Shown here piece by piece: positions 15,647 to 31,888 of a DNA stretch of 48,848 nucleotides; position 1 is the first letter of the stretch, and the number at the start of each line of letters is the position of its first letter. The position numbers were made by a program, and so were the translations under genes. Origin of the DNA: an uncultured Eubacteriales bacterium (GTDB lineage Bacteria > Bacillota > Clostridia > Peptostreptococcales > Anaerovoracaceae). The notes beneath the pieces were generated by a model. The model did no database searches. It had not been told where the DNA came from and saw nothing but the letters and a program-made list of their open reading frames with translations. Where the stretch lies: positions 1-48,848 of the forward strand of contig CACZAM010000036.1 of the NCBI GenBank assembly GCA_902779185.1, read 5' to 3'.

Positions 15647-15709
15647 GAACAGAAGAGCAGAGATGCTCTGAACTAGACAAATTTGATAATTCCAAAGGAG
15701 GGAATAATT

Positions 15710-16252
15710 ATGGCTAAATGGGTATGCAGTGTTTGCGGTTACGTTCATGAAGGGGATACACCTCCTGAAAAGTGCCCTGTTTGCAAGGTCCCTGCAGAAA
15801 AGTTCATCAAGCAGGAAGAGGAGATGACATGGGCAGCTGAGCATGTTCTCGGAGTTGCGCAGGGGGTTGATCCTGAGATCATCGCAGACCTCAGAGCAAA
15901 TTTCGAGGGCGAGTGCAGCGAAGTAGGTATGTACCTTGCTATGTCCAGAGTAGCTTTCAGAGAGGGATATCCTGAGATCGGCGAGTACTGGAAGACAGCA
16001 GCATGGGAAGAGGCTGAGCACGCAGCTAAGTTTGCAGAGCTCCTCGGCGAGGTGCTGACAGACAGCACAGAGAAGAACCTCAAGATGAGAGTAGAGGCTG
16101 AGAACGGTGCTACACTCGGAAAGACAATGCTCGCTAAGAAAGCTAAAGAGCAGAACCTCGACGCTATTCACGACACAGTTCACGAAATGGCAAGAGACGA
16201 GGCCAGACACGGAAAAGCTTTCGCAGGACTCCTTAAGAGATATTTTGGCTAG
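15710..16252 (+). CDS. rbr: Reverse-type rubrerythrin
   Basis: This 180-residue peroxidase has an N-terminal rubredoxin domain (Fe ligands C6, C9, C22, C25) ahead of a ferritin-like diiron domain. That is the reverse of classical rubrerythrin and typical of Clostridia, where such proteins reduce H2O2 with NAD(P)H-derived electrons. Diiron ligands are visible in [21 protein letters not shown] and [11 protein letters not shown]. The ATG at 15710 has a strong AAAGGAGGG; an in-frame upstream ATG at 15683 has no comparable site. A 42-codon gene follows 28 bp later and is probably cotranscribed. Confidence 0.95.
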
Positions 16253-17672: not shown

Positions 17673-17720
17673 TAACAATATATTGACACAAAATGAAGCT
17701 GTGACTACAATATATAGTGT
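17673..17720 (+). promoter_or_regulatory. nrdD promoter overlaid by two NrdR-like boxes
   Basis: A near-consensus promoter is present: TTGACA (17683-17688), 17-bp spacer, TACAAT (17706-17711). Two sites resembling the NrdR box (acaCwAtATaTwGtgt) cover it: 17673-17688 (weaker) and 17705-17720 (CTACAATATATAGTGT, stronger). Their starts are 32 bp apart, about three helical turns, as is usual for paired NrdR boxes. One box covers the -35 and the other the -10, which fits repression when dATP is high. No nrdR gene is in the window. The rest of the 317-bp arginase-nrdD gap holds a leader with an 8-bp inverted repeat (TTTTACGC, 17739-17746; GCGTAAAA, 17762-17769). Confidence 0.78.
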
Positions 17721-17863: not shown

Positions 17864-20140
17864 ATGAAAAGCATTATCAAAAGAGACGGCAAGGAGATGC
17901 CGTTTGATGAGTCTAAGATCTTCAACGCAATCTACGCCGCTAACAAGGCTGTTGAAGGCGAGAAGATGACGAGCATCGACTTTACTTATCTCACCAAGAA
18001 AGTCGTGGAACAGCTCGATGGAGAAACATGCACTGTAGAACAGGTGCAGGATATCGTTGAAGCAATGCTCATCAAGTATGACTGGGAGAAGACCGCCAAG
18101 GCTTACATCCTTTATCGCGCTGAGCATGCAAAGATCCGTGAAGCTGAGTCGGATCTGATGAACATCTACAATGAGCTCACGTATTCCTATTCAAAGGATG
18201 CTGACATCAAGAGAGAGAATGCCAATATTGACGGCGATACATCGATGGGCACCATGCTCAAGTATGGTTCGGAAGGCGCCAAGTATTTCGTAGACAACTA
18301 TGTGCTTCCTAAAGATATCGCTAAGGCGCATATCAATGGTGACATCCATATTCATGACAAGGATTTCTACATGCTCACCGAAACATGCTGCCAGATCGAT
18401 CTTATAAAGCTTTTCAAAGATGGATTCTGCACCGGCCACGGTTACCTCAGGGAGCCGCAGTCGATTATGAGTTATGCATCACTGGCATGCATCGCGATCC
18501 AGGCAAACCAGAACGAGATGCACGGCGGCCAGTCAGTACCTAACTTCGACTATGCTATGGCTCCGGGCGTTGCCAGAACATACATCAAGGAATTCTTCTC
18601 TGCGCTGACAGAGATCATCGCAGCCAAGCTCGACATGGCATATCCGGATGCAAAGGCTGTTTCGGAAAGGATCAAGGCTGAAGCTGCCGCTCCTACACTT
18701 GCAACGAACGGTTCTTACGGGGACATTCTGGGTGAATGGCTCGACAGAGGCGGTGATGCCGGCGGACTCACAAGAGAGCAGCTGGTGAGATGCAGCGCTC
18801 AGGCCGCAGAGGCAGCATGGGCAAGGACAGACAAGATGACCTACCAGGCAATGGAGGCACTTATCCACAACCTCAATACAATGAACTCCAGAGCCGGCGC
18901 ACAGGTGCCGTTCAGCTCGGTCAACTTCGGTACTGACACGACTCCTGAAGGCCGCATGGTCATCAAGAATTTCCTGCTTGCTACAGAGGCCGGGCTCGGA
19001 AACGGTGAGACTCCGATATTCCCTGTATCTATCTTCAAGGTGAAAGAAGGTGTCAACTACAATGAGGGAGATCCTAACTATGATCTCTTCAAGCTGGCCA
19101 TCAGATGCAGCGCAAAGAGGCTGTTCCCTAACTTCAGCTTCCTCGACGCTCCTTTCAACAAGAAGTTCTACAGAGAAGGAGACTACAACTCGGAAGTTGC
19201 TTACATGGGATGCCGCACGAGAGTAATGGCCAATAACTACGACCCTACAAAGGCTGTAGTATGCGGAAGAGGAAACCTCTCGTTCACATCGATCAACCTG
19301 CCTAGACTCGCAATCGAGTCAAACAGAGATTTCGATGTTTTCTACAAAAAACTTGATGCGATGATGGATCTCGTTGCGAGACAGCTTCTGCACAGATTCA
19401 AGATACAGTGCAGCAAGAAGGGTCGCAACTATCCGTTCCTGATGGGACAGGGTATCTGGATAGATTCGGACGACCTCGGACCTGACGACAGCGTAGCAGA
19501 GGTGCTGAAGCACGGTACTCTCTCGATCGGATTCATAGGACTGGCCGAGACAATGAAGGCCCTGACAGGCAAACATCACGGCGAGGATGAGACGTCCAGA
19601 GAGCAGGCATTCGAGATCATCAAGCATATGAGAGCGGTCTGTGACAGAAAGAGCGCAGAGACAGGCCTGAACTTCACACTGCTGGCTACACCTGCCGAGG
19701 GACTCTCCGGAAGATTCGTAAAGATCGACAGAGAAAAGTACGGCAAGCTGCCTGGAATCACAGACAGGGATTACTACACCAACTCGTTCCACGTTCCGGT
19801 ATACTATCCGATCGGAGCGTTTGAGAAGATCGCCATAGAAGCGCCTTACCACGATCTCACTAACGCCGGACACATCAGCTATGTTGAGCTCGACGGCGAT
19901 ACAGCGAAGAACCCTGAAGCTTTCGAATCCGTGATCAGATTCATGAAGGAAGCCGGCGTCGGATACGGCTCGGTAAATCATCCGGTAGACAGAGACCCTG
20001 TATGCGGATATACGGGAGTAATCGATGATGTCTGCCCGAGATGCGGAAGACGCGAGGGCGAACCTGTGACGATCGAGAGGCTGAACGAGCTCCGCATGAG
20101 ATTCCCGAGCGTACCGGTACCATGCGACTGCAACCGTTAA
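17864..20140 (+). CDS. nrdD: Anaerobic (class III) ribonucleoside-triphosphate reductase NrdD lacking its glycyl-radical tail
   Basis: This 758-residue catalytic subunit reduces NTPs to dNTPs under anaerobiosis. An N-terminal ATP-cone (IIKRDGKEMPFDESKI) senses ATP/dATP. The barrel carries SRAGAQVPFSSVNFGTDTTPEGR and the thiyl-radical cysteine C450 in MGCRTRV. The C-terminus keeps part of the zinc site (C714, C724, C727) but then diverges (TIERLNELRMRF to PCDCNR) and stops. It has no RRxxGYL glycyl-radical motif, which is indispensable in known NrdD enzymes. C754/C756 could complete a metal site. The missing motif is encoded by the 55-codon gene 168 bp downstream. GGAGAGAAAG precedes the ATG. 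Confidence 0.95.
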   Translation: MKSIIKRDGKEMPFDESKIFNAIYAANKAVEGEKMTSIDFTYLTKKVVEQLDGETCTVEQVQDIVEAMLIKYDWEKTAKAYILYRAEHAKIREAESDLMNIYNELTYSYSKDADIKRENANIDGDTSMGTMLKYGSEGAKYFVDNYVLPKDIAKAHINGDIHIHDKDFYMLTETCCQIDLIKLFKDGFCTGHGYLREPQSIMSYASLACIAIQANQNEMHGGQSVPNFDYAMAPGVARTYIKEFFSALTEIIAAKLDMAYPDAKAVSERIKAEAAAPTLATNGSYGDILGEWLDRGGDAGGLTREQLVRCSAQAAEAAWARTDKMTYQAMEALIHNLNTMNSRAGAQVPFSSVNFGTDTTPEGRMVIKNFLLATEAGLGNGETPIFPVSIFKVKEGVNYNEGDPNYDLFKLAIRCSAKRLFPNFSFLDAPFNKKFYREGDYNSEVAYMGCRTRVMANNYDPTKAVVCGRGNLSFTSINLPRLAIESNRDFDVFYKKLDAMMDLVARQLLHRFKIQCSKKGRNYPFLMGQGIWIDSDDLGPDDSVAEVLKHGTLSIGFIGLAETMKALTGKHHGEDETSREQAFEIIKHMRAVCDRKSAETGLNFTLLATPAEGLSGRFVKIDREKYGKLPGITDRDYYTNSFHVPVYYPIGAFEKIAIEAPYHDLTNAGHISYVELDGDTAKNPEAFESVIRFMKEAGVGYGSVNHPVDRDPVCGYTGVIDDVCPRCGRREGEPVTIERLNELRMRFPSVPVPCDCNR

Positions 20141-20155
20141 TCGGGTAAATAAGGA

Positions 20156-20188
20156 TTATCCACAGGGTTTTCCACAAGTTTATCCACA
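20156..20188 (+). promoter_or_regulatory. Three DnaA boxes at 12-bp spacing
   Basis: TTATCCACA (20156-20164), TTTTCCACA (20168-20176) and TTATCCACA (20180-20188) are in the same orientation and spaced exactly 12 bp apart. The first and third match the DnaA-box consensus TTATNCACA perfectly. They lie between nrdD and the radical-domain gene, about 50 bp upstream of the latter's candidate promoter. DnaA control of ribonucleotide reductase genes is known in other bacteria. Confidence 0.8.
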
Positions 20189-20237
20189 AGATGATGTGGT
20201 ATGCATTAAAAGAAACAACAATATACATTAATATTGC

Positions 20238-20266
20238 TTTACAAATCCCTGTGCAGGGATTAGAAT
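20238..20266 (+). promoter_or_regulatory. Candidate promoter of the radical-domain gene with palindromic spacer
   Basis: TTTACA (20238-20243), 17-bp spacer, TAGAAT (20261-20266). The spacer is almost entirely a palindrome: AATCCCTG (20244-20251), TG, CAGGGATT (20254-20261), an operator-like placement. A further inverted repeat, CAATAT/ATATTG, lies at 20219-20236. The start codon is 43 bp downstream of the -10. Confidence 0.65.
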
Positions 20267-20308
20267 GATTGCGCATCAAATAAGAAGATAACGTACGGAG
20301 GTACTGGT

Positions 20309-20476
20309 ATGAATAACAAGGTAGTAAAGAATGTAAACGGTCAGGTCGGCGAAGGCGTTGGCTTTGAGAGAATCAGAAGGATCACAGGCTATCTCGTGGG
20401 TACACTCGACAGATTCAACAACGGCAAGAGAGCTGAAGTACAGGACAGAGTCAAGCACGGACTGTCCCACAACTAA
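20309..20476 (+). CDS. Stand-alone glycyl-radical domain of class III ribonucleotide reductase
   Basis: This 55-residue protein contains FERIRRITGYLVGTLDRF, the canonical NrdD glycyl-radical loop, with the radical glycine at residue 27, followed by the usual tail (NNGKRAEVQDRVKH). These are the residues missing from the upstream nrdD product. It has a strong GGAGGT six bases before its ATG and its own candidate promoter. It is in the same frame as nrdD, but at least four stop codons intervene, so simple readthrough cannot fuse them. The likely role is to carry the radical made by NrdG and dock into NrdD, comparable to the spare-part protein GrcA/YfiD for pyruvate formate-lyase. A hairpin terminator and nrdG follow. 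Confidence 0.9.
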   Translation: MNNKVVKNVNGQVGEGVGFERIRRITGYLVGTLDRFNNGKRAEVQDRVKHGLSHN

Positions 20477-20493
20477 TTGACCATCTGAATAAA

Positions 20494-20532
20494 ATGGCCG
20501 CCTTAACCGTATAGAGGTGGGCGGCTATTTTT
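20494..20532 (+). terminator. Terminator between the radical-domain gene and nrdG
   Basis: TGGCCGCCT (20495-20503) pairs with GGGCGGCTA (20519-20527), including G-U pairs, followed by TTTTTG. It lies just before the nrdG ribosome binding site, so nrdG would be expressed by partial readthrough. Confidence 0.7.
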
Positions 20533-20552
20533 GTGAAAGAAGAGGTGCCGCA

Positions 20553-21125
20553 ATGGTTGAGATGGACAAAAGCAAGGACAAAAGCAAAATAATAAGGATG
20601 TGCGGGATCGAGCCGGAGTCGATAGTCGACGGACCGGGATTCAGGTATGTTATTTTCGTACAGGGATGCCCGCATCATTGCCATGGATGCCACAATCCTG
20701 AGTCGTGGGCTTTCGATGGTGGATACGACATGACAGTAAATGAGGTGTTCGAGGATATATGCGGCAGGCCATGGCTGCGCGGGGTGACTTTCTCCGGCGG
20801 CGAGCCTTTCGAACAGGTGCCGGCCCTCCTGGACCTTGCGAAGAACATAAAGGGAGCTGGGCTCACACTGATGAGTTACAGCGGTTATACGCTTGAAGAG
20901 CTCGAAGCGAGGCATGATAAGGACACCGATGAGCTTCTTGAAATGCTCGATATCCTGGTAGACGGACGATATGACGAGAAGCTGCGCAACCTGACTCTCG
21001 TATACTGCGGATCCGAGAACCAGCGTGTTATTGATATGAAGAAGACAAGAAGAGCGAGAAGGGAGGGAGACACAGGAATGGTGATCCCTTACAAGTCGGG
21101 ATTCGATTTCGAGATAAAAATCTAG
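20553..21125 (+). CDS. nrdG: Anaerobic ribonucleotide reductase activating protein NrdG
   Basis: This radical-SAM activase of 190 residues generates the glycyl radical of class III ribonucleotide reductase using a [4Fe-4S] cluster and S-adenosylmethionine. The cluster motif CxxxCxxC is at C39, C43, C46 (GCPHHCHGCHNPES), preceded by DGPGFRYVIFVQG. TFSGGEPF is the SAM-binding GGE motif. The ATG at 20553 has GAGGTG upstream; an earlier in-frame start at 20517 would lie in the terminator stem. Here its substrate may be the separate 55-residue domain rather than full-length NrdD. Confidence 0.95.
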   Translation: MVEMDKSKDKSKIIRMCGIEPESIVDGPGFRYVIFVQGCPHHCHGCHNPESWAFDGGYDMTVNEVFEDICGRPWLRGVTFSGGEPFEQVPALLDLAKNIKGAGLTLMSYSGYTLEELEARHDKDTDELLEMLDILVDGRYDEKLRNLTLVYCGSENQRVIDMKKTRRARREGDTGMVIPYKSGFDFEIKI

Positions 21126-29048: not shown

Positions 29049-30284
29049 TCAGTTTTGAGAGCAAATTTCTCCGATGAATGCATCCATGTCGGAAGTGGAA
29101 GGGAAGATGGCTCTCGCGTTGTCATCACGGCCTCCGCCCTTGCCGTTGAAATTTTTTGCGTTTGCTTTGACTATAGCTCCGCATTTGCGCTCTTCTGAAG
29201 AGGAGAGGAGCAGGCATGTGTGAGATTCCGGCTGTCTCATGATAAGGAAGAGTCCCGGAACTTCATTTATGACCGAAAATCCCAGCTTCAGAAGATCGTC
29301 AGCGTTAAGGACATCTGAGCTGTATACGTATCCGGACGTGCCGGTATCGCTGACAGATCCAAGGATCTTTTCTTTTTCTGCGTCTTTTATATATGCTGTC
29401 ATTTCCGCGAGTCTTGCTTTCAGAGCAGCGATGCTTTCTGCTTCGGCATTCAGTCTGCCCGGAAGATCAGCAGGAGAGCAGGAGTAACGTCTGGCTGCCT
29501 CTGCCAGTATGCCTGAGTCAGCGCTGAGCTTATCGAATGCAGCCTTTCCGCAGTCAAAGTATATGCGGTTCATGCCTTTGTTAGGCTCGCGCTTATAGAT
29601 CGCAAGCAGCCCTACTTCTGATGACCTGGCAGGGTGGGTGCCGCAGCATGCGATGCAGTCATACGGATCATTCAGATCCCCGACCGTTACTACAGATACT
29701 CTGCCGTCGTGCGGTACCTGCTTGCGCACAGGAAGCGCGAGCGAAGATTCATAGTCATCGAACCAGGTTACAGTTACAGGAAGATCCGCCCAGATCGCAC
29801 TGTTCACAGTGCGTTCTGCGAGATCAAGCTCTTCGTCTGTGAGCATGCGTCCTCCGAGGTCAATGTCTATGGTGATGTATTCATCTCCCATGTGAAAGCC
29901 TTTGTTGATACCTCCGAAGAGAGTGTCCATTGTGCCGCTCAGCATGTGCTCACCGCAGTGACGCTGCATGTTGCGGAAGCGGAGTTCCCAGTCTATGTTA
30001 AGTCCGACCCTGTCCCCTGTGCTGAAGGTGCCTGCCGGAGCATCCGTGATATGCCATACATCGCCTGTAAGAGACTCGTCAAAAGCGCGGCTTATCCCGA
30101 AGACCTTCTGCGATCCTGACAGGGATACGCTGCCGGTGTCTGAGGGCTGTCCTCCGCCTTCCGGATAGAATACCGATGAATCGCAGGCTATCACATCCTT
30201 GCCGTTTTTTTCGCGTACGGCGGTGATCACAGCCTCGTTTTTAACAGCGTACGGGTCTGTCTGGTATATCCTTTTTGTGACCAT
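29049..30284 (-). CDS. alaX: Alanyl-tRNA editing protein, AlaX type with DHHA1 domain
   Basis: This 411-residue protein matches the editing half of alanyl-tRNA synthetase and hydrolyses mischarged Ser- or Gly-tRNA(Ala). The zinc site is H109/H113 in HCGEHMLSG and C213/H217 in CCGTHPA. An N-terminal TTLD-like barrel (SVFYPEGGGQPSDTG) and a C-terminal DHHA1 region (NFNGKGGGRDDNA) complete the long AlaX form. The ATG at 30284 has AAAGGAAC upstream; an earlier ATG at 30329 adds 15 residues without a site. The 311-bp region upstream contains DnaA boxes. Confidence 0.92.
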   Translation of the reverse strand: MVTKRIYQTDPYAVKNEAVITAVREKNGKDVIACDSSVFYPEGGGQPSDTGSVSLSGSQKVFGISRAFDESLTGDVWHITDAPAGTFSTGDRVGLNIDWELRFRNMQRHCGEHMLSGTMDTLFGGINKGFHMGDEYITIDIDLGGRMLTDEELDLAERTVNSAIWADLPVTVTWFDDYESSLALPVRKQVPHDGRVSVVTVGDLNDPYDCIACCGTHPARSSEVGLLAIYKREPNKGMNRIYFDCGKAAFDKLSADSGILAEAARRYSCSPADLPGRLNAEAESIAALKARLAEMTAYIKDAEKEKILGSVSDTGTSGYVYSSDVLNADDLLKLGFSVINEVPGLFLIMRQPESHTCLLLSSSEERKCGAIVKANAKNFNGKGGGRDDNARAIFPSTSDMDAFIGEICSQN

Positions 30285-30357
30285 TTGTGTTCCTTTCTGA
30301 TGTTTCACGCGTTTCACAAAATCGAACAAAAACGCGCGTCATGAAAATTCAAAAATA

Positions 30358-30488
30358 TGTGGATAAATCCTGTTGACACAAGGAAAAAATCGTTTCAAAC
30401 GTTGAAATTTCAACGATTTACCGCTTCGAGTTTTCCACATGCATAAGTGGAAAAGATTGTATACGATTTTTCAAATCCTTGTGGAAAA
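30358..30488. promoter_or_regulatory. DnaA-box cluster upstream of alaX
   Basis: Sites are TGTGGATAA (30358-30366, perfect on the minus strand), TTTTCCACA (30431-30439), AGTGGAAAA (30446-30454) and TGTGGAAAA (30480-30488). TTTTCCAC (30431-30438) and GTGGAAAA (30447-30454) form a perfect inverted repeat with an 8-bp spacer. A 16-bp palindrome, CGTTGAAATTTCAACG, is at 30400-30415. Direct repeats GTTTCAC lie at 30302-30308 and 30311-30317. On the minus strand, a weak TTGTGT-18-TATTTT promoter for alaX would have the first DnaA box in its spacer. Confidence 0.65.
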
Positions 30489-30595: not shown

Positions 30596-31888
30596 TCAGT
30601 CTCCCTCGGGCTCAACCATATCTTCGAACATAGCTCCTGCTGCTCCGCATAAAGTCTGGAAGACAGGAGTGTCAAGACGGAACCTTCCCTTGGTGCTGAT
30701 AAACGGCGAATACATCGAAAAAATAGTTGCATCATCGAGCATCGAAATGTATCTGAGCTCGTTGCTCATGAGTATGAGCTCACCGGCTATGGAAAGCAGG
30801 GCAAAGCCGTAAACATCATCATTTAACCTGTATGAAGAGCTGTCTACATGAGAATTGTCACCTTTATAGGCGGTATACAGCCATCCGTTCGGCACTGCCA
30901 TCTGGGTGGAATTGGCAAACAGATTTATGTACTTGGGATCAAAGCCCCTGATCATGTCATCCTTGCAGTCGAAGACCGTAAGAAACTCGGGGCGGCTGAT
31001 CTGCATGGCTGCTTCATAATCCGAGAGCTTTATGACTGATCCGACTTTGATATCCGTTACGAGAGGATTTTTTGCGCGGTGGTTCCCGTTCAGCCAGATG
31101 ACGAGAGTGTAGTGATAGTACGCGTCCCTTGCGAGGGTCGTCAGCCGGCAGCGGAAAGGGAAGGAGAACCTGTCCGCGGGGACATCTTTCTTACGGTCAC
31201 TTCTCTTTATGTCGCACTTGATAAGTGTCTGTATTCCGGGTCCGACAAGTTCGCAGTCACAGAGGTCATCGGTGCTTATAGTCGAAAGGTATGAGGCGGC
31301 AGCAAAGTCCCTGTCTACCATCCTCATGATGAAATAGTTTATGGTCTCATATGTCGACAGCCTGAGAGGAGACGCGGTCTCTATGGCGTCTCTTGTGCTG
31401 CAGTCGGCTGAAGTGATGCCTTCGCAGTTGAGCGCGTCCTGCATGAACCCGATACGCATCCTGGCATATGCGCGGAACTTCCTGTTTTCTTCGCTGTCAT
31501 ACTCTCGTGAGATATCTTCCGAAGCAAGCGGCAGGGCATCTTCGATGAGCCTCAGCATGCAGGCCGCGTCTATGCTTTCTGTTTTGCCGCCCATAACATA
31601 GACGAAGTGGTTCCAGAGAGAATTCATCTCTTCTTTCTTATCCGCAAAGTCAGCGCTTCCCGGAGTACAGATGAATTCCCGGTACTCATCGATGCCATAT
31701 TCGGAATAATCCAGATGTATCACCTGATACATTCGCTCGCGCCTGTCAATCCTGCTGCGCCAGGTCACTTTAAGAGCGACGACTCCCATCAGCCGCGTGC
31801 ATACAATGCGGCATGTTTCGAAGTCGAATTCCCTGAAATGATCGTATTTTTCGGACTGTTTTCCGTGTATCAGTTTTAATTCAGCCAT
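30596..31888 (-). CDS. Unrecognised 430-residue cytoplasmic protein
   Basis: I do not recognise this protein. It has no signal peptide, no clear membrane segment and no nucleotide-binding or catalytic motif that I can identify. Composition is that of a folded soluble protein, with several Cys (for example DDLCDCEL and ECS-like ADCSTRD) but no regular metal-binding spacing. An N-terminal mixed alpha/beta region leads to a helical middle and a C-terminal part rich in beta-type residues. No Shine-Dalgarno is visible; the candidate -10 is only 6 bp from the ATG, suggesting a leaderless mRNA. It is transcribed away from metK. Codon use resembles that of its neighbours. Confidence 0.75.
   Translation of the reverse strand: MAELKLIHGKQSEKYDHFREFDFETCRIVCTRLMGVVALKVTWRSRIDRRERMYQVIHLDYSEYGIDEYREFICTPGSADFADKKEEMNSLWNHFVYVMGGKTESIDAACMLRLIEDALPLASEDISREYDSEENRKFRAYARMRIGFMQDALNCEGITSADCSTRDAIETASPLRLSTYETINYFIMRMVDRDFAAASYLSTISTDDLCDCELVGPGIQTLIKCDIKRSDRKKDVPADRFSFPFRCRLTTLARDAYYHYTLVIWLNGNHRAKNPLVTDIKVGSVIKLSDYEAAMQISRPEFLTVFDCKDDMIRGFDPKYINLFANSTQMAVPNGWLYTAYKGDNSHVDSSSYRLNDDVYGFALLSIAGELILMSNELRYISMLDDATIFSMYSPFISTKGRFRLDTPVFQTLCGAAGAMFEDMVEPEGD

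Follow-up and report, generated by a model that had tools for sequence, protein, structure and literature searches.

A class III ribonucleotide reductase with a probably obligatory glycyl-radical subunit encoded by a separate gene

In this study, we analyzed the class III ribonucleotide reductase (RNR) locus of an uncultured Eubacteriales bacterium (Anaerovoracaceae), which lies on contig CACZAM010000036.1 of assembly GCA_902779185.1, a metagenome-assembled genome (MAG) that is 79% complete. The window, i.e., the whole stretch of DNA analyzed, covers positions 1–48,848 of this contig. RNR is an essential enzyme. At this locus, the catalytic gene nrdD lacks the glycyl-radical domain (GRD), and the domain is found in a standalone form, as a separate small gene that we designate grd, followed by the activase gene nrdG.

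Gene organization of the nrdD locus

The elements that define the split enzyme are listed below.

17864–20140, plus strand: nrdD core of 758 aa, with ATP-cone and NRDD barrel and without the glycyl-radical loop (profile matches and alignment)
19211–19213, plus strand: codon of C450, the finger-loop thiyl cysteine, role by homology (alignment with 8p23 and other solved NrdDs)
20003–20044, plus strand: zinc-site region with C714, C724, and C727, three Cys invariant in a 41-row alignment
20054–20137, plus strand: C-terminal tail of NrdD, EGEPVTIERLNELRMRFPSVPVPCDCNR, in the columns of the FERIRRI that precedes the Gly loop in fused NrdDs
20297–20302, plus strand: Shine-Dalgarno GGAGGT ahead of grd (sequence)
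20309–20476, plus strand: grd, standalone glycyl-radical subunit of 55 aa, with the codon of the radical Gly27 at 20387–20389 (profile and alignment)
20553–21125, plus strand: nrdG activase (TIGR02491, 148.6 bits against a cut-off of 126.1)

A preliminary description of this DNA had claimed that NrdD possesses the ATP-cone, the barrel, and C450 but no RRxxGYL motif, and the profiles and alignment bear this out. The ATP-cone spans residues 3–89 (PF03477, 67.7 bits), and residues 118–731 match NRDD (PF13597, 632 bits) over profile positions 1–531 of 562. C450 lies within MGCRTRV, at the same place as in the solved NrdDs, and is invariant across the 41-row alignment. The chain stops after the zinc-site region without a radical glycine; C714, C724, and C727 are present, and the fourth Cys expected from the Prevotella copri alignment was not seen. 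The end of the profile is encoded by another gene: positions 533–562 are matched by the 55-aa protein (E = 2.4e-8), so that the radical glycine is not in the same chain as the NrdD core. Coverage of PRK07111 (746 positions) is likewise divided, with NrdD covering positions 2–711 and the small protein 711–744. Gly27 was assigned as the radical glycine by aligning the small protein with P. copri NrdD (8p23), whose glycyl loop it matches. Its motif is of the NrdD family, since Pfam gives only NRDD above the cut-off, and NCBIfam and PHROGs give only NrdD-type models and no pyruvate formate-lyase (PFL)-type domain.

The intact motif thus resides, as had been proposed, in an independent downstream gene with complementary profile coverage, which has its own ATG as well as its own GGAGGT. 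The gap of 168 bp between nrdD and grd is in frame, and five stops were counted in that frame, nrdD's own included, where at least four had been claimed; there is no continuous frame across it. The nrdG open reading frame (ORF) opens at 20517, and its likely start is the ATG at 20553. The tail EGEPVTIERLNELRMRFPSVPVPCDCNR is possibly the decayed start of the glycyl domain and a docking element; the homology is suggestive, and the docking function is one that we infer. The earlier proposal that C754 and C756 in this tail form a docking or zinc site could not be generalized: CxC after the zinc motif is kept in only 18 of the 66 split tails, mostly those of close relatives, and a shared zinc site at these residues was rejected.

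From these sequence comparisons, we consider the locus to encode a class III RNR in which the glycyl-radical loop is a separate and obligatory subunit, with a probability of about 0.87. The two-chain enzyme put forward in the preliminary description gains support from comparative genomics, in that the split recurs in relatives, the GRD is often unlinked, and a search of members of the genus detected no other RNR.

Occurrence and conservation of the split enzyme

Of 595 confirmed relatives identified in GTDB genomes, the best 80 were taken as the sample of related loci, which for this reason leans to close kin. The GRD was sought in the 3.5–5 kb fetched after nrdD at each locus, and L036 and L081, at contig ends, were left out of the linked/fused count. 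The sample comprises 60 linked split pairs, 13 fused genes, five NrdDs without a linked GRD, and two loci ending at a contig end. With the linked split recurring at 60 of the 80 loci and NrdD without a linked partner at five, the split is not an assembly slip; the relatives show the same kind of gap, and L010 (genome G022) and L012 (G027) are split. Taxa with the split are Clostridia, Desulfovibrionaceae, and Selenomonadaceae. The 50 genomes behind these loci consist of 45 split and five fused, and all 45 split genomes contain a standalone GRD, which in five of them is not near nrdD. In G228, the sole GRD found shares its contig with genes for a GH108 endolysin and RusA and is hence phage-like; a chromosomal copy may be absent from the assembly.

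Among 61 Selenomonadaceae genomes, 58 have an NRDD match: 54 are split with a GRD, three are fused only, and in G272 NrdD is partial and no GRD was listed. The GRD is linked to nrdD in 22 of the 54 split genomes and unlinked in 32, the pair in G260 being 429 kb apart on one contig; G261 additionally carries a fused NrdD. An nrdG-like ORF, judged by eye, is located beside 9 of the 17 unlinked main GRD copies fetched. The radical-site glycine is kept in 200 of 201 matches to a motif that permits any residue at this site, and the one deviating match, in L274, appears to be spurious. Purifying selection on grd is indicated by a median ratio of nonsynonymous to synonymous polymorphism (pN/pS) of approximately 0.05 (40 codons, 22 own-genus copies). 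Frame continuity is not kept, because only 18 of the 61 linked pairs (window included) share a frame, near one third.

A class I or class II RNR large subunit was not found in the own genome (79% complete) or in the 20 same-genus genomes searched, and therefore the split enzyme should be the working reductase in this genus. NRDD was matched in 31 of 35 same-genus genomes; 29 of these are split with a GRD, and G031 and G034 carry distant NrdD subtypes. No fused NrdD was found in the 29 genomes with a split NrdD, several of which are at least 90% complete, and the second intact nrdD considered in the preliminary description was not found elsewhere in the own MAG at its 79% completeness. G228 and G241 have neither a fused NrdD nor a class I/II RNR match. 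In G230, G234, and G237, two split NrdD cores are accompanied by one GRD gene listed per genome, and both catalytic subunits may depend on the same radical subunit there. One of the distant subtypes, L118:1624-4026 in G031, is an 800-aa NrdD-like frame whose C-terminus looks thioredoxin/glutaredoxin-like by eye.

In the window, nrdD and grd are adjacent and in the same frame, as would be left by a sequencing or assembly error or a pseudogene that breaks the frame of a single nrdD; given the same organization at the 60 related loci, the low pN/pS of grd, and the unlinked partners in other genomes, the chance of such an artefact is negligible. The in-frame gap of 168 bp would also suit a single polypeptide produced by readthrough, bypassing, splicing, or an intron. 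This is scarcely credible when 43 of the 61 linked pairs are out of frame and grd has its own start signals, and in the 32 Selenomonadaceae genomes the two genes are on different contigs or far apart, so that readthrough, bypassing, and splicing are excluded there and cannot be the general explanation. It is also conceivable that the small protein is a mere spare part, and that nucleotide reduction depends on another reductase or on an intact nrdD that the MAG lacks. The incompleteness of the own genome, the fused NrdD or class I/II RNR that some split genomes elsewhere carry, and three genomes in which a spare accompanies a fused NrdD (described below) are in keeping with this, but the 29 same-genus split genomes without a fused NrdD and the lack of class I/II RNR in all 20 same-genus genomes searched render it highly unlikely. 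Several points nevertheless weigh against an obligatory two-chain enzyme. The own genome is a MAG of only 79% completeness. A fused NrdD is additionally present in 11 of the 45 split genomes and a class I/II RNR match in 12, so the split enzyme does not stand alone in every genome. Where an unlinked copy is on a separate contig, a broken assembly could be part of the reason; in 27 of the 32 unlinked genomes, nrdD starts more than 5 kb from the start of its contig (that contig end only). Class-wide, the split was seen in two of 147 genomes (133 with a match), G161 and G200, among the matches listed, and no standalone GRD was listed in 24 order-level relatives. Finally, the oxygen rationale discussed below draws on gene neighbours in a few loci.

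Origin of the split and copies on mobile elements

A tree was built by a quick method from 81 NrdD cores trimmed at the zinc site, without L036, L062, L081, and L084, in which the zinc motif was not found, and without rows below 1000 bits (L087, L088, L090–L099, and other subtypes) and loci from L115 on. Six changes between split and fused states are needed on this tree, and at least five are forced by well supported branches. The split L069 pairs with the fused L079, and L067, L082, and L083 pair with the fused L070. The tails of these four split proteins are stubs resembling the start of the glycyl domain (VERIERPKRF, HERIKRI) and end at the Gly loop. The tail VTIERLNELRMRFP of the window group, in the FERIRRI columns of the fused enzymes, may be a homologous remnant of the same kind, although the resemblance is suggestive only.

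Three genomes combine an intact fused NrdD with a standalone GRD: G140, with the gene order nrdD-grd-nrdG-nrdR (nrdR read by eye); G126, in which grd is behind rubredoxin and flavodiiron protein genes; and G183, in which grd is at another place. Their coexistence suggests that a spare part may have turned obligate. G079 counts as fused rather than split, because its locus (L253, G079:C144) is one open frame in which an insert of approximately 110 residues separates the zinc site from the Gly loop. These three genomes and G079 may be living intermediates, with the spare part first and the obligate part later. Most likely, a spare copy of the domain would first have arisen next to a fused NrdD, whose own domain would then have decayed at the Gly loop. 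In G148, the 45-aa glycyl-end matches L250 and L251 (contigs C5 and C9) have identical scores and are both located at contig ends; they may be repeated copies of the end of a single gene.

Standalone GRDs were divided into types. Type A, found in the window, Lachnospiraceae, and Desulfovibrio, has a GxG-like motif just ahead of FERIRR and no extra domain, whereas types B and C, found in Selenomonadaceae and some Oscillospiraceae, have an extra N-terminal domain of approximately 50 residues. A hidden Markov model (HMM) of the type B domain, built from the same B copies that it matches, detected all 27 main B copies, five of the seven C copies, and none of 53 main A copies; the GxG-like motif is present in 50 of the 53 main A copies. 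All 35 second copies are of the host type: those of type A genomes have the GxG-like motif without the domain (28 of 28), and those of type B genomes have the domain (7 of 7). This count overstates independence because the second copies are related to one another, and L273, tallied as a second copy, may be a main chromosomal one.

The own genome carries such a second GRD (G000:C41; L210, 9887-10105, minus strand), located between a VirB2-like pilin gene and genes for VirB6-like, PrgI, TraG-type ATPase, and CHAP proteins; the VirB2-like and VirB6-like Pfam matches are below the curated cut-offs, and those of PrgI, TraG-type, and CHAP are above. The own genome and 11 same-genus genomes together contain 22 unlinked GRDs, of which 18 have at least one conjugation-type neighbour, 13 have a VirB6-like gene directly downstream, and four have no such neighbour. 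Beyond the own genus, copies were assigned to a mobile setting largely by visual inspection of the adjacent ORFs, and L230 is the only one supported by family matches. A relative is encoded on 293 stretches of IMG/VR. Among the best 80 of these, 74 have a standalone GRD without NrdD in the fetched stretch (up to 12 kb), four a split pair, and two a fused gene. The first glycyl-domain HMM used for the viral loci was built from three sequences, and the count was checked by motif, which identified a standalone GRD ORF in 78 of the 80 loci, four of them beside NrdD; an NrdG-like motif is present in three of the 80. Seven phage neighbours that were scanned are portal, terminase (two), tail fibre (two), endolysin, and the Avd protein of a diversity-generating retroelement (DGR), and the three GRDs scanned in PHROGs match only full-length or large-fragment NrdD families. 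A reverse transcriptase or DGR Avd protein is encoded near the phage GRD gene in L143 and L168 (IMG/VR). An NrdD-type glycyl motif also occurs on the Clostridioides difficile plasmid records H42–H54, several of them 10–14 kb, where it is annotated as anaerobic ribonucleoside triphosphate reductase.

Proposed mechanism, related systems, and regulatory elements

We propose a mechanism for the split enzyme based on its homology to ordinary NrdD. The 55-aa protein would dock on NrdD and bring Gly27 within reach of C450. NrdG would place the radical on Gly27, C450 would then become the thiyl radical, and nucleotide reduction would run as in ordinary NrdD. It appears an even bet whether the advantage of the split is that an oxygen-cut radical subunit is cheaply replaced and made in its own dose. 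The GRD adjoins a rubrerythrin gene in L234 and rubredoxin and flavodiiron protein genes in L246, and ORFs near the GRD in L231 and L233 resemble, by eye, antisense reads of rubrerythrin; together with the rubrerythrin gene upstream of the window nrdD, these neighbours are thinly consistent with the replacement of oxygen-cut subunits.

The split enzyme shares the barrel, the finger-loop Cys, the glycyl motif, and NrdG with known NrdD/NrdG systems (P. copri NrdD, 8p23; T4 NrdD, 1h78), and its ATP-cone is as in P. copri. In the partial accounts of class III RNRs that we consulted, the GRD is the C-terminus of the same chain, whereas here it forms a protein of its own. In the open-access literature searched, which does not include subscription journals, we found no class III RNR described as having its glycyl-radical subunit on a separate chain. 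The PFL spare parts GrcA/YfiD and T4 Y06I are likewise small radical-glycine proteins that act on a larger partner; the excerpts available describe a phage-borne spare part in T4 and indicate that the YfiD N-terminus and the residual C-terminal stretch of the partner matter for binding (PMC8683613). They differ in that they belong to the PFL family and that, according to the same excerpts, PFL has its own glycine, which YfiD replaces after damage (PMC8683613), whereas the window NrdD has none. A partner with its own intact glycine is absent from the window and present in G140, G126, and G183, so the comparison with GrcA/YfiD made in the preliminary description fits as an analogy. Only the PFL spare parts are described there as validated, the others being speculated (PMC8683613, in part); split NrdD is a direct candidate for an RNR spare part, with possible living intermediates. 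Class II NrdJa/NrdJb is also an RNR in two chains, but a B12 enzyme (excerpts of PMC9669993). Phage RNR genes, nrdD included, are divided by introns, inteins, and homing endonucleases; these differ in being sporadic insertions, and no standalone glycyl-radical protein is described in the sections consulted (PMC3653736).

If the proposal is true, various anaerobes of the gut and rumen have an essential enzyme made of two components, of which the oxygen-labile one can be swapped. Repair of glycyl-radical enzymes, docking of the glycyl domain, and activase recognition would become testable on separate proteins, and tiny genes of phages and of integrative and conjugative elements would gain a function-level reading.

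Additional features at the locus are as follows.

15683–16252, plus strand: rubrerythrin, context only (family match), 1.6 kb upstream of nrdD
17704–17720, plus strand: ACTACAATATATAGTGT, NrdR-box-like site upstream of nrdD
20156–20188, plus strand: three DnaA-box-like sites, TTATCCACA, TTTTCCACA, and TTATCCACA, ahead of grd
20238–20266, plus strand: promoter-like TTTACA-17-TAGAAT
20489–20533, plus strand: terminator-like or attenuator hairpin with a T run, separating grd from nrdG (z −3.2)

With what we take to be the NrdR box consensus, AATATATAGTG was identified upstream of nrdD in 10 of the 13 loci examined, the window included, and an NrdR gene was found in the own genome. Sites resembling what is presumably the DnaA box number seven in the window against 0.61 expected, and two to three of them precede grd in the window and its five closest relatives. 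The hairpin and T run behind grd were spotted by eye in the five closest relatives; a consensus scan did not list that of the window. The DnaA-box-like sites and the hairpin around grd, the NrdR-box-like site at nrdD, and the NrdR gene suggest that the small gene may be dosed separately.

The role of the freed subunit can be read in other ways. The split could serve independent dosage or control by DnaA/NrdR rather than oxygen repair, as the elements around grd in the window and its five closest relatives and the NrdR gene would allow. However, DnaA-box-like sites were not found in seven of eight own-genus or near loci compared besides the closest six and L028, with L028 the only one of the more distant loci compared to have them, and the GRD is near rubrerythrin or flavodiiron genes in some genomes; we regard this explanation as possible but doubtful. 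The mobile GRDs, in turn, could be inhibitors or decoys that capture the host NrdD, and their match to the host type is what an inhibitor would also require. Every copy counted, 78 viral and 22 unlinked ones of the own genus, nevertheless keeps the radical glycine, and the median pN/pS of mobile copies is approximately 0.21, which makes decoys improbable. Judging from these sequences, the mobile copies are most likely helpers for deoxynucleoside triphosphate (dNTP) supply that keep the host reductase active during replication of the element. The wider scenario, that anaerobes repeatedly freed the radical domain of class III RNR, as a spare and then an obligate part, and that phages and conjugative elements carry nothing of the enzyme but this host-matched subunit to seize or rescue dNTP supply, e.g., after oxygen exposure in transfer, seems to us to stand at balanced odds.

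The candidate promoter of grd claimed in the preliminary description is present as TTTACA-17-TAGAAT, but these hexamers are weak evidence because two such sites were found in the scanned region against approximately 1.3 expected by chance. A palindrome in the promoter spacer was rejected; it is present in the window but imperfect or absent in the relatives compared. Three more DnaA-box-like sites are located at 30358–30488 of the window, between the ORFs 29049–30329 and 30596–31888, both on the minus strand.

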